Shown here one piece after another: positions 1-5,445 of a stretch of DNA of 5,445 bases. Origin of the DNA: Fusobacteriota bacterium (GTDB lineage: Bacteria > Fusobacteriota > Fusobacteriia > JAPLKR01). Position 1 is the first letter of the stretch. Each line of letters begins with the position of its first letter. The stretch covers positions 1 through 5,445 of the forward strand of contig JAPLKR010000118.1 in the NCBI GenBank assembly GCA_026387965.1, read 5' to 3'. The notes under the pieces were generated by a model that searched no databases, was not told where the DNA came from, and saw nothing but the letters and a program-made list of their open reading frames with translations. The position numbers were made by a program, and so were the translations under genes.

Positions 1-560
1 TTGGCTGCAGCTTAGTGGTTAGACCTATTTGGGAAGAGTATACACCTAAATATGGGGAAAAATTGATAGTTATTGATCCTAAAATGGCGTTTGGAACAGG
101 AACTCATGCAACCACAGCTCATTGCCTTAGATTTGTTGAAAAATATGTAAAAGTAGGAGATAGAGTACTAGATATTGGGACAGGATCTTCTATTCTTTTG
201 GTGGCTTCCAAACTCTTTGGGGCTAGTAAATTGATTGGCGTTGATATCGATGAGGAGGCACTGCTTAGCGCAGAAGAAAATTTAAAGCTTAATGGAATTT
301 CAGATTATGAACTTTCAACTTCATTTAGTGATTCTAGATCGTATGATGTAGTTATTGCCAATATTATTTGTGAAGTCCTTATCGATTTGTTCAATTCAAT
401 GGTCAATAAAATGCAAAAAAATGGATTGCTTTTTTTATCTGGAATATTGATAGAAAAAACGGGTAAAATGGAAGCTATAATACTTCATAGCAAACTTGAA
501 ATTGTAGAAAAAAGCATAGAAGATGGGTGGGTTGGTTATGTCTGTAAGAAAAGTTATTAA
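1..560 (+). CDS. prmA: Ribosomal protein L11 methyltransferase PrmA, 5'-partial
   Basis: This is the C-terminal catalytic part of PrmA, the cytoplasmic SAM-dependent enzyme that methylates ribosomal protein L11. Seen in the sequence: WEEY, then the PrmA signature MAFGTGTH, SAM motif I (VLDIGTGSS), the acidic loop GVDID, the motif ANII and a late LSGI. The frame stays open to the left edge (codons from base 3 read GCSLVVRP, matching the family), so the GTG at 15 is unlikely to be the true start. PrmA is usually about 290-315 residues; roughly the first 110-130, the L11-recognition domain, lie outside the window. One oddity is that the third glycine of GxGxG is serine (codon 189-191). The gene overlaps cutC at its 3' end, which suggests co-transcription and translational coupling. 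Identification is firm; activity with the altered motif is not known. Confidence 0.93.
   Translation, partial: GCSLVVRPIWEEYTPKYGEKLIVIDPKMAFGTGTHATTAHCLRFVEKYVKVGDRVLDIGTGSSILLVASKLFGASKLIGVDIDEEALLSAEENLKLNGISDYELSTSFSDSRSYDVVIANIICEVLIDLFNSMVNKMQKNGLLFLSGILIEKTGKMEAIILHSKLEIVEKSIEDGWVGYVCKKSY
525..530 (+). promoter_or_regulatory. Possible ribosome binding site for cutC
   Basis: The G-rich GGGTGG lies 7 bases before the ATG at 538, inside the end of prmA. It is a weak Shine-Dalgarno match. It favours 538 over the upstream in-frame ATG at 523, which has only GAAG-like sequence directly abutting it. Coupling to prmA translation may matter more than this site. Confidence 0.35.
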
Positions 561-1161
561 AGAGGCGTGTATTGAGGGGATAGAACAGGCGTCTTTGGCA
601 GAGAAAAAAGGTGCTCAAAGAATTGAGTATTGCGCAAATTTAAAAGAGGGTGGAACTACTCCAAGTTTTGGGGAACTTAAAGTGGTGCTTTCTAAATTAC
701 ATATTCCGGTTGCGGTAATGATAAGACCGAGAGGTGGAAATTTTTGTTATTCACCCCTTGAAATAGAAGTTATGATTGCCGATATTACTGAATTTAAAAA
801 AATAGGTGTGAATCATTTCGTTTTTGGTGTATTAACTAAGAGTAGAGAAATCCATAAAAAAAATACAAAACGTTTAATTGAGGCGTGTAAGGGTTCAACA
901 GTCACCTTTCATAGGGCTTTTGATGATGTTAAGGATCAATATTTAGCCTTAGAAACATTAATTCAACTTGGTTGTCACAAAGTGCTTACTTCAGGGGGGG
1001 AAGAGCGCGCAATTTTAGGAAAAAAAAAGTTAAATAAGCTCATTTTCCAAGCAGGTTCAAGAATTACTGTTATTCCTGGAGCAGGAATAACAGCTCAAAA
1101 TATTGAGAAATTTTTATGTGCAGTACAGTGCTGTGAAGTTCACGGCACTAAAATAGTATAA
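538..1161 (+). CDS. cutC: Copper homeostasis protein CutC
   Basis: CutC-family TIM-barrel protein, cytoplasmic, linked in the literature to copper tolerance, although its biochemical role is still unsettled. Visible family blocks in 207-residue numbering: RIEYCANLKEGGTTPSFG (28-45), MIRPRGG (61-67), TFHRAFD (123-129), LTSGG (150-154), PGAGI (180-184) and the terminal EVHGTKIV. The length and HGTK ending fit the short Gram-positive form (about 210 residues), not the roughly 248-residue enterobacterial form. I chose ATG 538 because the family begins a few residues before the first strand (VIKEACIEG); ATG 523 would add five residues. The gene overlaps prmA by 23 bases in another frame and is followed after 12 bases by a small membrane protein gene, so it probably sits in an operon. 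No copper-responsive operator was seen. Confidence 0.92.
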   Translation: MSVRKVIKEACIEGIEQASLAEKKGAQRIEYCANLKEGGTTPSFGELKVVLSKLHIPVAVMIRPRGGNFCYSPLEIEVMIADITEFKKIGVNHFVFGVLTKSREIHKKNTKRLIEACKGSTVTFHRAFDDVKDQYLALETLIQLGCHKVLTSGGEERAILGKKKLNKLIFQAGSRITVIPGAGITAQNIEKFLCAVQCCEVHGTKIV

Positions 1162-1173
1162 AGAGAGAGAGAA

Positions 1174-1527
1174 ATGGGACAGAGAAAAATCAAGAAAACA
1201 ATCAAACAAAAAAAAGAAAAATTCGAATTTACCTCTGAATTTAGAGAAGAACTATTTATCTTGATAAAAGGAAAAAGAACGCCTGAAGATATCGCGAGTG
1301 AATTCGTAAGTAAAGAGATTATCCCCAATGAGAAAGTGAATGAAGTAATAAGTATTATTTCTAAATATAGACAAAAAAAGAGAACCTTTGGAAATATTTT
1401 AATGGTAGTAGGGGCAATTGGGTTTATTGTAGGTTTATATTTTACGCTTTTTAAAGGTAAACTATTACTGATGGCCATCGTGGGGATAATTGTTATCATT
1501 GCAGGATGGATGTTTAAAAGCAAATAG
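1174..1527 (+). CDS. Small two-helix membrane protein, unknown function
   Basis: I do not recognise a family for this 117-residue protein. Residues 1-70 are hydrophilic and strongly basic at the start (RKIKKTIKQKKEK), with a helical-looking middle. Two hydrophobic segments follow, about 72-93 (NILMVVGAIGFIVGLYF) and 97-113 (LLLMAIVGIIVIIAGW), joined by a tight FKGK turn, and the protein ends KSK. Lysine/arginine before helix 1 (RQKKR) and after helix 2 suggests a hairpin in the inner membrane with both ends in the cytoplasm. There is no signal peptide or catalytic motif. A purine-rich AGAGAGAGAGAA tract directly before the ATG serves as ribosome binding site, 12 bases after cutC, so it is probably co-transcribed with prmA-cutC. 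The opposite-strand open frame over the same region is not credible as a gene. Confidence 0.8.
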   Translation: MGQRKIKKTIKQKKEKFEFTSEFREELFILIKGKRTPEDIASEFVSKEIIPNEKVNEVISIISKYRQKKRTFGNILMVVGAIGFIVGLYFTLFKGKLLLMAIVGIIVIIAGWMFKSK

Positions 1528-1549
1528 ATCGAAATTTAATAAATATTAA

Positions 1550-1579
1550 CTATCAATATAATACCGTACGTGCTATAAT
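1550..1579 (+). promoter_or_regulatory. Extended -10 promoter of the DEAD-box helicase gene
   Basis: TGCTATAAT at 1571-1579 is a perfect extended -10 (TGnTATAAT). No good -35 is present: the best at 18-base spacing is CTATCA (1550-1555, three of six matches), which the extended -10 can compensate for. Transcription would begin near 1586, giving a leader of about 26 bases. The ribosome binding site AAGAGG (1601-1606) lies 5 bases before ATG 1612. No long cold-shock-type leader is visible, so cold regulation at the leader is not supported. Confidence 0.65.
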
Positions 1580-1611
1580 ATAGAGTAGTTTAAAGACGAA
1601 AAGAGGTATTA

Positions 1612-3447
1612 ATGGAAAAATTTAGAGAACTCAACATTAGTGAAGAAATAATTGCGCAGTTAGAAAAAAAAGGATTTGAAGAGCCGACCCCCATTCAAAA
1701 GATGTGTATTCCTGCTTTAATAGAAGGAAAAGGCGATATTATTGGACAAGCTCAAACAGGCACAGGTAAGACAGCTGCTTTTGGTATTCCAATTCTTCAA
1801 AACCTTGACAAGAATGCTAAACACGTTCAAGCAATTATTTTGGCACCAACGAGAGAACTTGTTATTCAAATTACAGATGAACTGAGCTCAATTAAAGGAA
1901 GTATTAAAACTTCAATTTTACCGGTGTACGGTGGCGCTTCAATCGAGAGACAAGTGAATCATTTAAGACAAGGTGTAGATATCGTAGTTGGAACACCTGG
2001 TCGTGTTATTGATATGATTAACAGAAAAGTGTTAAAATTGGATAAAATATCATACTTTATTCTTGATGAAGCAGATGAGATGCTTAACATGGGATTTATT
2101 GAAGATATTGACTTGATTTTAAGTAGCACAAACCAAGAGAGAAAAATTCTTTTCTTCTCAGCAACCATGCCAGACCAAGTGCTTCATATTGCAAAAAAAT
2201 ATATGAAGAATCAAACAGTATTAAAAGTGGAAGCAAACAAATTAACAACAGATTTAACCAATCAAATCTATTTTGAAGTAGAAGAGCGTGATAAGTTTGA
2301 ACTTCTTACACGTATGATCGATTTAGAGCCTGAAATTTATGCGTTTGTATTTTGTAGAACAAGAAATGAAGTAACGGAGATTACCGATAGACTTGTTGAT
2401 CGTGGATATGATGTAGATGGACTTCATGGAGAGATTGCACAGCGCCAACGTGAAATCATTCTTAAGCGTTTTAGAGGAAGACAACTTAATATCATCGTTG
2501 CAACCGACGTTGCAGCACGCGGAATTGATGTTGCGGATTTAACACACGTTATTAACTACTCGATCCCTCAGGATCCTGAGAGTTATACACATAGAATCGG
2601 CAGAACAGGGCGTGCAGGTAAAGAGGGTACGGCCGTAACTTTCATTACGCCAAGAGAGTACAGAAAATTATCGTTTATTCAACGTGCAACAAAAACCGAT
2701 ATTAAAAAAGCGGAGATTCCGACAATTAAACGTCTTATCAGAATCAAAAAAGTTAAGATTAAAAAAGACATCGAAGCTACATTAGAATTAAAAGGGTATG
2801 AAAATTATTCTGATATCGCTGCAGATTTATTAGCGACACATGATCCACAAGAGTTAGTATCAGCTATTTTGAAATATTCGCTAAAAGATGAGCTTGATGT
2901 TGAAAGATATACTGAAATTCGTGAAGTGAAAAAACAAGATAGAGATAGTCGTGATTATAGAGACTCAAGAGATTCAAGAGGAAGAGATTCCCGCGGGTCA
3001 AGCAGTAGAGATAGTCGTGATTTTAGAGAATCAAAAGATTTTAGAGAGTCAAGAGACCGTTTTAGAGATTCTAAAGATTCTAGAGATTCAAGTCGTCGTT
3101 CACCAAGAGAGATGGGTGACGAGATTCTAGATAATCATACAAGACTTTTTATCGCTATGGGTAGACGAGATAATGTGAATAAAGGAAGTTTGAAGAAAAT
3201 CGTTCAAAGAAAAGTAAATATTTCTGAAGATGAGATTAAAGACATTGCCATTCAAAACGAGTTTTCATTTATTACTTTACCGTATGCAGTAGCTGAACAA
3301 GTGGTTAAAGCATTTAAAGATGAGACAATAGATGGAAAGCCAGTTATTGAACGTGCAAAAATGCGTGATAATGATAAGCCGAGAACTGAAAGAAAAGAAA
3401 TTTCTGACAGATTTGAAGATAGAAAAGGTCCAAGAAAAAAATATTAG
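1612..3447 (+). CDS. deaD: DEAD-box ATP-dependent RNA helicase, DeaD/CsdA type with DbpA RNA-binding domain
   Basis: An ATP-dependent RNA helicase expected to remodel structured RNA in ribosome assembly, mRNA turnover or cold adaptation. All core motifs are present in the 611 residues: Q motif (F4 to PTPIQ at 25-29), I AQTGTGKT (47-54), Ia PTRELV (79-84), Ib TPGR (128-131), II DEAD (152-155), III SAT (183-185), IV FVFCRT (245-250), V ATDVAARGID (297-306), VI HRIGRTGR (327-334). Residues about 366-435 look like the helical dimerisation region of DeaD/CshA. An Arg/Asp/Ser-rich repeat linker (about 444-498) follows, then a DbpA-type RNA-binding domain (about 508-583, beginning TRLFIAMGRRD) and a basic tail. 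Architecture and length resemble E. coli DeaD (629 residues); the symbol is by architecture, and DbpA- or CshA-like roles are possible. It has its own promoter and is closed by a strong terminator. Confidence 0.9.
   Translation: MEKFRELNISEEIIAQLEKKGFEEPTPIQKMCIPALIEGKGDIIGQAQTGTGKTAAFGIPILQNLDKNAKHVQAIILAPTRELVIQITDELSSIKGSIKTSILPVYGGASIERQVNHLRQGVDIVVGTPGRVIDMINRKVLKLDKISYFILDEADEMLNMGFIEDIDLILSSTNQERKILFFSATMPDQVLHIAKKYMKNQTVLKVEANKLTTDLTNQIYFEVEERDKFELLTRMIDLEPEIYAFVFCRTRNEVTEITDRLVDRGYDVDGLHGEIAQRQREIILKRFRGRQLNIIVATDVAARGIDVADLTHVINYSIPQDPESYTHRIGRTGRAGKEGTAVTFITPREYRKLSFIQRATKTDIKKAEIPTIKRLIRIKKVKIKKDIEATLELKGYENYSDIAADLLATHDPQELVSAILKYSLKDELDVERYTEIREVKKQDRDSRDYRDSRDSRGRDSRGSSSRDSRDFRESKDFRESRDRFRDSKDSRDSSRRSPREMGDEILDNHTRLFIAMGRRDNVNKGSLKKIVQRKVNISEDEIKDIAIQNEFSFITLPYAVAEQVVKAFKDETIDGKPVIERAKMRDNDKPRTERKEISDRFEDRKGPRKKY
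2941..3046 (+). repeat. Imperfect direct repeat encoding the Arg/Asp/Ser linker
   Basis: Bases 2941-2980 recur at 3007-3046 with a period of 66 bases. The first 16 bases are identical (AGAGATAGTCGTGATT) and the remaining 24 match at 19 positions, so 35 of 40 agree. Smaller units (AGA GAT TCA / AGA GAC TCA) recur between and after them to about 3105. The repeats are in frame and encode RDSRD and FRES/FRDS-like units. This looks like expansion by slippage or unequal exchange within the helicase gene. Confidence 0.8.
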
Positions 3448-3450
3448 TAA

Positions 3451-3487
3451 AAAGAGTGTACTCACATATGTGAGTACGCTTTTTATT
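3451..3487 (+). terminator. Rho-independent terminator after the helicase gene
   Basis: A perfect 20-base palindrome at 3458-3477 (left arm GTACTCACAT) is extended outward by pairs including two G-U wobbles (3451-3457 with 3478-3484), followed by CTTTTTATT. The hairpin starts only a few bases after the helicase stop codon. Because an A-run precedes the stem, the reverse strand also reads as hairpin plus T-run, so it could act in both directions. It separates the housekeeping block from the synthetase gene. Confidence 0.88.
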
Positions 3488-3539
3488 ACATACTAATTAT
3501 GTGCTAGCAAAGAAAAATTAATGCGTGTTTTAAAAAAAC

Positions 3540-3569
3540 GTGATAAGAACAAAGTCCATGAAATATAGT
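3540..3569 (+). promoter_or_regulatory. Candidate promoter of the synthetase gene
   Basis: GTGATA (3540-3545, four of six matches to TTGACA) and TATAGT (3564-3569, five of six to TATAAT) are spaced by 18 bases, upstream of a start at 3604. An alternative -10 is TAAAAT (3574-3579). In such AT-rich DNA these matches can arise by chance. A promoter somewhere in 3490-3590 is nevertheless expected, because a strong terminator precedes the gene. Confidence 0.35.
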
Positions 3570-3593
3570 GACATAAAATATTAAAAATTAAAT

Positions 3594-3598
3594 GGGAG
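3594..3598 (+). promoter_or_regulatory. Ribosome binding site deciding the synthetase start
   Basis: GGGAG lies 5 bases before ATG 3604. An in-frame ATG at 3592 overlaps this site and has only AT-rich sequence before it, so 3604 is preferred. The formyltransferase fold also begins right after 3604 (KKAIVIGKGNF). Confidence 0.75.
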
Positions 3599-3603
3599 AA
3601 AGA

Positions 3604-5445
3604 ATGATTGAAAATAAAAAAGCAATAGTGATAGGAAAAGGAAATTTTTGTATAACATGTATAGAAATTTTAAAAAGCCAGAGTTGGGAAATTATAAGTG
3701 TTGTAGCTTTTGATGATAAACTTAAAATCTACTGTTTAATGCACAATATAAACATAATCAACATAAAAGAAATTGAAAAAATTGATCAAACAGAATATTA
3801 TTTATTTAGTATTTTTAATCCTGAGATTATTAAGAACAGTATATTAAAGTTAAAAAACAATATTTTAACAGTTAATTATCACGATAGTTTATTGCCAAAA
3901 TATGGTGGAATTAATAGTACTACATGGGCAATATTAAATGACGAAAAGGTACACGGGATAACATGGCATATAGTTAGTGAAGGGATTGATGAAGGGGACA
4001 TATTAGTACAAAAAGAAGTTATAATTGAAGAAAATGATAGTGCGTTTGATTTAAATATGAAATGTACTAAAGTAGGAATTGAAGGATTTTATGATTTGCT
4101 AAATATGATAGAGAATGAAAAACTAATAGGAAAGAGTCAAAATTTGACTAAATCAGAGTATTATGGATTAAATAAATTGCCATATAATTACGGAATAATT
4201 TCTGCAGATACAAATAAAAGTTTAGTAAAAAAATTAGTTAGAGGTTTGGGTTTTAAAAAAGGATATGATAATCCAATCACAACAATAAAATGTTATGTAA
4301 ACGGTAAATTTTGTATAATTGCAGATGATATAAATGAAAATAAGAAAAAAAATGATGAAAATCATCATTTTTTAGATATATACGGAAATTTTATAGATGA
4401 TGTAATTGTATTTGATGATTCAGAAAATATAAAGGTTTCTATTGATCAATTGAACAAATTATCAAAAATAAGAATAAGCGAATATAATTTCGTAAAATAT
4501 TTAAATAGATATCGCCCATTACTAGAGAATAATAGTGATTTAATTATAAATAGCAGAAACAAATTGAAAAACAATAAGATTATTAAAAAAACTTATGTGG
4601 ATTTTAAGGAACAATTGATAGTTTTGCAAATTATATTTTCAAGATTGAACACCGATGAATATGTAATCCCAGTTTATAAATTAAACGAAGAATCTACAAT
4701 TTCAGAAAAATTAACTCAAGATTTTGGAGTATTATTTGTAAAACAAAAAAATCTTGAAGACAGTTTCGAAGAAATTTCATTAAAATTTGACAAAAAAAAC
4801 CCTATGAAAACGATATCTAAGGACTGTTTATATAGATATAATTTTAAGTTTCAGTCTGGTGTTTGTATAATAAATAGTGATGAAATAAAGAGTGAAGGGG
4901 CTTCGTTAGTAATAAAAATTAAAGATGGAACGACGGAATTTAACTATACAAATGAAAATGCAAAAATTGTCGAAGTAATTTCAAATTCATTTGAATATTT
5001 AATTAAAAGAGTAAAGGAAATTAGAAATAATAAAACAAAAACTTCTTGCATCCCATTAATCAATGAAGAAGAATTCAGGAAAATTATTTACGAGTGGAAT
5101 AATACAGAAGCGGATTATCCAAGAGATAAAACAATTCAAGAGATGTTCGAAGATCAAGTATCAAGAACGCCATATAACATAGCAGTAGTGTATGAAGATA
5201 CAGAATTAACGTATAGAGCGTTAAATGATAAAGCAAACCAGCTAGCACACTACCTAAGAAGAGAGTACTCGATACAGGGAGATGACTTAGTAGCATTATG
5301 CTTGGATAGAAGTGAGTTGATGTTAGTAAGTATCTTAGGGGTATTGAAATCAGGAGCAGGATACGTACCGATGGATCCAGAGTATCCATTGGATAGATAT
5401 TCTCATATCTTAAGTGATACTAAAACAAGGGTTGTGTTATCAAAT
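3604..5445 (+). CDS. Formylating nonribosomal peptide synthetase, initiation module, 3'-partial
   Basis: The frame is open for 614 codons to the window edge. Residues 5-175 are a formyltransferase domain: strand KAIVIGKGNF, the active-site loop NYHDSLLPKYGG (N91, H93), GITWHIVSEGIDEGD with D129. These match the Asn/His/Asp triad of methionyl-tRNA formyltransferase, which uses 10-formyltetrahydrofolate. Residues about 205-295 (LVRGLGF ... NPITTIKCYVNGKF) look like the formyltransferase C-terminal domain. Residues about 335-495 resemble only the second half of a condensation domain, ending IIYEWNNTEADYP, the usual condensation-to-adenylation junction; no HHxxxDG was found. Adenylation starts near 505, with A1 LTYRAL (535-540) and A2 LKSGAGYVPMD (581-591); A3 onward, including the specificity residues, is outside. 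Inferred role: activates and N-formylates the first amino acid of a peptide, as in LgrA. It is preceded by a terminator, so it likely heads a biosynthetic operon. The product is unknown. Confidence 0.88.
   Translation, partial: MIENKKAIVIGKGNFCITCIEILKSQSWEIISVVAFDDKLKIYCLMHNINIINIKEIEKIDQTEYYLFSIFNPEIIKNSILKLKNNILTVNYHDSLLPKYGGINSTTWAILNDEKVHGITWHIVSEGIDEGDILVQKEVIIEENDSAFDLNMKCTKVGIEGFYDLLNMIENEKLIGKSQNLTKSEYYGLNKLPYNYGIISADTNKSLVKKLVRGLGFKKGYDNPITTIKCYVNGKFCIIADDINENKKKNDENHHFLDIYGNFIDDVIVFDDSENIKVSIDQLNKLSKIRISEYNFVKYLNRYRPLLENNSDLIINSRNKLKNNKIIKKTYVDFKEQLIVLQIIFSRLNTDEYVIPVYKLNEESTISEKLTQDFGVLFVKQKNLEDSFEEISLKFDKKNPMKTISKDCLYRYNFKFQSGVCIINSDEIKSEGASLVIKIKDGTTEFNYTNENAKIVEVISNSFEYLIKRVKEIRNNKTKTSCIPLINEEEFRKIIYEWNNTEADYPRDKTIQEMFEDQVSRTPYNIAVVYEDTELTYRALNDKANQLAHYLRREYSIQGDDLVALCLDRSELMLVSILGVLKSGAGYVPMDPEYPLDRYSHILSDTKTRVVLSN

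Follow-up and report, generated by a model that had tools for sequence, protein, structure and literature searches.

The linear gramicidin synthetase LgrA, whose F-A-PCP initiation module is represented by structures 5ES5 and 6MFZ, uses its formylation (F) domain to place a formyl group on the tethered starter amino acid, a step that elongation requires (PMC5053139, PMC4504003). Starter formylation domains occupy the N-terminal position, before the first adenylation (A) domain, and a review puts the number of formyl-capped NRPS products at three (PMC8949500). A preliminary description of the locus reported here had illustrated the rarity of formyl-initiating modules with two examples. The tally is longer: the kolossin line has a formyl-starting module (PMC8949500), loading-module formyltransferases occur in the conglobatin, oxazolomycin and rhizopodin lines (PMC4504003), and formyl-starting modules have been predicted for the discodermin and calyxamide lines (PMC12858407).

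F domains also occur in NRPSs with less of a published record. Two plasmid-borne proteins, from Legionella adelaidensis (WP_058463129.1) and L. lytica (WP_252582488.1), are annotated as ‘amino acid adenylation domain-containing protein’; the former comprises 1391 aa in the order F-[C-lobe relic]-A-T-TE, where C and T denote condensation and thiolation. We know of no product for either. Further examples come from rhizobial, Mycetohabitans and MupA/Atu3671-type NRPSs, some of which are multimodular or have an A domain with an embedded luciferase-like monooxygenase. Sugar N-formyltransferases (5UIJ/5UIN, 4XCZ) are stand-alone enzymes with sugar substrates and without NRPS fusion.

The window analysed here, a stretch of 5,445 nucleotides (positions 1-5,445), spans the whole of contig C1 in a genome assembled as 141 contigs (1.79 Mb). 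Besides the end of prmA and the cutC gene, it encodes a small membrane protein and a CshA-like DEAD-box helicase, followed by a hairpin and the start of an NRPS open reading frame. The features from the helicase onward are:

1612-3447: CshA-like DEAD-box helicase gene, upstream of the NRPS ORF
3458-3477, strand not assigned: perfect hairpin between A and T runs, read as a terminator between the helicase and NRPS genes (folding z -7.4)
3594-3600, plus strand: GGGAGAA, putative ribosome-binding site of the NRPS gene, as read from the sequence
3604-4140, plus strand: formyltransferase catalytic domain, residues 1-179, with N91/H93/D129 (Pfam, alignment, tree)
4141-4500, plus strand: formyltransferase C-terminal part, residues 180-299 (alignment with relatives)
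4501-4962, plus strand: stretch at the place of the relatives’ condensation C-terminal lobe, residues 300-453 (position, colinear alignment)
4963-5112, plus strand: end of the condensation-like lobe and C-A linker, residues 454-503 (phmmer alignments)
5146-5445, plus strand: N-terminal quarter of an NRPS A domain, residues 515-614 (Pfam, alignments)

The helicase is 52-60% identical to its counterparts in most other searched genomes of the host’s class, and on the strength of this resemblance the contig belongs to the organism. Between the helicase core and the C-terminal RNA-binding end, the protein has an RDSRD-rich low-complexity insert (2930-3110). The 50-nt region around the downstream hairpin folds at -23.1 kcal/mol as compared to -6.8 +/- 2.2 in shuffles, none of which (0 of 200) folded as well, in line with the strong terminator that had been placed ahead of the NRPS gene. 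A pattern scan put the hairpin on the minus strand; its most plausible role is that of a terminator for the helicase gene upstream. The NRPS ORF itself (3604-5445) is uninterrupted over 614 aa and still open at the last base of the contig. An in-frame ATG lies ahead of it at 3592, but we favour 3604 as the start because the GGGAGAA element sits at 3594-3600.

Pfam matches to Formyl_trans_N (E 1.4e-17, residues 89-162) and AMP-binding (E 8.1e-23, residues 515-612) within this one frame bear out the formyltransferase-adenylation NRPS start that the preliminary description had proposed. The same holds for its catalytic Asn-His-Asp triad: N91, H93 and D129 in the N-terminal F domain are invariant across an alignment with five NRPS relatives and also align to the LgrA formylation domain, and both these residues and the surrounding motif are kept in distant members of the clade defined below. 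Among solved structures, the F domain is nearest to the sugar N-formyltransferases 5UIJ/5UIN and 4XCZ (E 1.3e-19 and 1.6e-13) and resembles LgrA weakly.

Annotated plasmid records, searched by tblastn, gave much better matches than any solved structure, namely N-terminal F domains of NRPSs from Rhizobium, Sinorhizobium, Bradyrhizobium, Mycetohabitans and Methylobacterium, from MupA/Atu3671-type proteins and from the two Legionella species. A maximum-likelihood tree built from 31 sequences unites the F domain of the ORF and thirteen of these NRPS F domains in one clade (support 99/97; 98% of bootstrap trees) and leaves sugar formyltransferases, ArnA, LgrA and methionyl-tRNA formyltransferases outside. 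The LgrA row covers 78 residues, or 46% of the columns, which makes the placement of LgrA itself uncertain but not that of the ORF’s domain. L. lytica shows the highest identity to the ORF’s F domain in the tree columns (39%), and the rhizobial, Mycetohabitans and MupA-type F domains reach about 27-36%. A scan of the genome_contigs collection turned up ordinary Fmt and PurN only. A single-sequence AlphaFold2 model of the protein was unusable (mean pLDDT 30.7).

The preliminary description named LgrA among the known formylating modules and called the layout of the new protein different. The difference from LgrA is real: both proteins begin with F followed by A and carry the N/H/D triad, but 346 residues separate the matched F core from the A domain in the ORF as against 61 in LgrA. 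Given this spacing and the position of LgrA outside the F clade, we discarded homology to LgrA as the principal framework; the nearest kin are the proteobacterial NRPS-fused F domains. Nor is the layout new, since that clade shares it. The L. adelaidensis protein is colinear with the ORF over residues 7-607 without rearrangement (25% identity, E 4e-52), so that the supposedly divergent layout is the layout of the Legionella and rhizobial group. From the active site to the A core, the ORF has 444 residues, most relatives 468-517 and Sinorhizobium medicae 586, a spacing of similar kind that extends to the rhizobial, Mycetohabitans and MupA/Atu3671-type proteins. The ORF thus belongs to a known, fairly widespread NRPS group, its arrangement already present in Legionella and rhizobia. 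A literature search for an F-(C relic)-A layout returned no match.

What lies between F and A was read largely through these relatives. Both Legionella proteins share with the ORF a triad-bearing F domain, an Fmt-like C-terminal part and an A domain, and they hold a condensation C-lobe relic at the matching place. Residues 180-239 of the ORF correspond in alignment to Formyl_trans_C of the L. lytica NRPS, a region for which Pfam gives no match in the ORF itself; in L. lytica, Pfam recognises Formyl_trans_C and then condensation positions 194-451 (E 7.8e-9). When the family’s F-to-A stretch was compared with condensation domains by hhalign, the match had 95% probability (0.1% or less in column-shuffled controls). 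Searched alone against condensation domains, the ORF’s own middle stretch (residues 300-453), which is shorter and diverged, stayed below significance; the F-to-A stretch as a whole is about 55-60 residues shorter than in Legionella. At its downstream edge, residues 454-503 align by phmmer to LgrA from residue 1172 onward, the C-A junction of the second module, and to McyB 440-475. A condensation C-lobe relic is therefore likely present between F and A of this ORF, as judged from sequence comparison, and the simple reading is that F took the place of the first part of a C-A-T elongation module. On an S. medicae plasmid (about 4414 onward), a nearly full-length condensation domain with HHxxxDG seemingly follows F immediately, which may represent an intermediate stage in how the layout arose.

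The AMP-binding match ends at profile position 98 of 384 (positions 1-98), and the contig stops within the A domain, before the substrate-code residues, with any T and later domains beyond it. Neither the substrate code nor a T domain can thus be read for this gene, and the assembly's single NRPS-type T domain lies on another contig (C135) without link to it. The Legionella proteins, by comparison, terminate in T-TE, whereas the ORF is read up to its A domain.

Taken together, we consider it reasonably probable that the ORF encodes an NRPS starter protein whose F domain would formylate a tethered starter amino acid and whose line would make a peptide. Starter formylation is the likeliest role of F by analogy with LgrA. 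On this model, the A domain would activate the first amino acid and load it onto a T domain beyond the contig end; F would then transfer a formyl group from 10-formyltetrahydrofolate to the amino group of the aminoacyl thioester, and the formyl-capped residue would enter the assembly line. The shrunken C-terminal condensation lobe between F and A would be what remains of an elongation module after F had displaced its front half. Counting against this reading, the F domain has its nearer relations among sugar N-formyltransferases and an uncharacterised NRPS clade, with LgrA more distant. A near-identical cluster with a known product, which the preliminary description had named as a refutation, did not turn up in the collections searched.

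The remainder of the genome, for which the contigs with NRPS-related matches were read as sequence, provides what a formylating NRPS line needs, namely a phosphopantetheinyl transferase (230 residues, Sfp-type by length and motifs) and a formate-THF ligase gene. It also carries priA-def-fmt, with fmt starting right after def and cut by the end of contig C86 (2013-2189); purN was looked for in the genome and not detected. Since fmt is present, its truncation being a gap of the assembly, the NRPS F domain does not stand in for Fmt, and we rejected the idea that Fmt had been lost and that this domain was the sole formyltransferase. Further NRPS pieces lie at two other contig ends:

C67, 12183-15304: stand-alone 433-aa condensation-like protein, MFS exporter, and NRPS condensation N-lobe (HHISMDG) cut by the contig end
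C135, 7710-11291, minus strand: C(partial)-A-T-thioester reductase-cyclic-nucleotide-binding-like domain

The condensation N-lobe on C67 is the start of its protein. The tail of the C135 protein matches PF00027 above the cut-off (E 1.3e-10), and a literature search for reductase-cNMP proteins returned nothing. Joining the window to C67 or C135 via shared ends was rejected, as there were no meaningful shared 16-mers and the A-domain DNA occurs once in the assembly. The C135 gene may nevertheless be the finishing end of the line begun here, with reductive release, in which case the product would, speculatively, be a formyl-peptide aldehyde or alcohol. The full version of this scheme, one split line running from the formylating start to the C135 end, making an N-formyl peptide aldehyde or alcohol, with release gated by the sensor-like tail, and the first such line in the class, strikes us as unlikely. 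Convergent with the reductase NRPS on C135 is a gene (5993-7258) for a 422-aa FAD protein distantly like geranylgeranyl reductases and lycopene cyclases.

The two Legionella relatives, each about 1400 aa long, consist of a single F-A-T-TE module, and the same starter chemistry could accordingly operate within a single module here (F-C relic-A-T-TE or -reductase) to yield a lone formylated amino acid or a very small product other than a peptide. C domains present at two further contig ends in this genome, and the multimodular nature of the R. leguminosarum relative, speak against it, and we regard it as rather improbable. We are more doubtful still of the view that F has been kept for structure or docking without formylation, the line starting with a free amino acid. 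A literature search did return no clade member with tested F activity and no product for the clade, but the active-site N, H and D and their motif have been preserved across distant members, more than a role in structure alone would call for.

That the closest solved structures are sugar N-formyltransferases might suggest formylation of another amine, be it a side chain such as that of hydroxyornithine or a sugar, rather than the starter alpha-amine; this is very unlikely in view of the N-terminal place before the first A domain, which matches that of starter formylation domains (PMC8949500), and of the 5,445-nt stretch, in which no sugar or siderophore genes lie beside the NRPS gene. A chimeric contig, with an AT-rich formyltransferase gene misjoined to an A domain near position 5100, is hardly credible: GC climbs from 0.24 to 0.37 at about that point, the contig ends soon after and NRPS-type sequence often breaks assemblies, but the relatives are colinear across this position, A-domain GC above that of the surroundings also occurs in C135 and goes with amino-acid composition, and a search of the assembly for a second copy of the A-domain DNA found none.

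Condensation domains above the Pfam cut-off occur in one of 98 genomes of the host’s class, this one alone. Matches to the F region in 59 other searched genomes of the class were weak and nearly all fell in proteins of Fmt, PurN or sugar-formyltransferase length. Over its first 1500 bases, the NRPS gene has a GC content of 24% as compared to about 35% in its neighbours. The isolated occurrence, the AT-richer gene and a clade that is otherwise proteobacterial together suggest that the NRPS gene was gained by horizontal transfer, and thus that a small-genome lineage seemingly acquired an NRPS in this way.

The locus extends a second, little-studied group of NRPS F domains from Proteobacteria, where its kin all came from plasmid records, to the host’s class. 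Its interest lies in this isolated occurrence and in the function of the group, which is directly testable on its short single-module members, as in Legionella. Elsewhere in the genome, contig C113 (5768-10835) encodes two tandem paralogues of 828-829 aa, each with AMP-binding and PP-binding domains and not typical of NRPSs.
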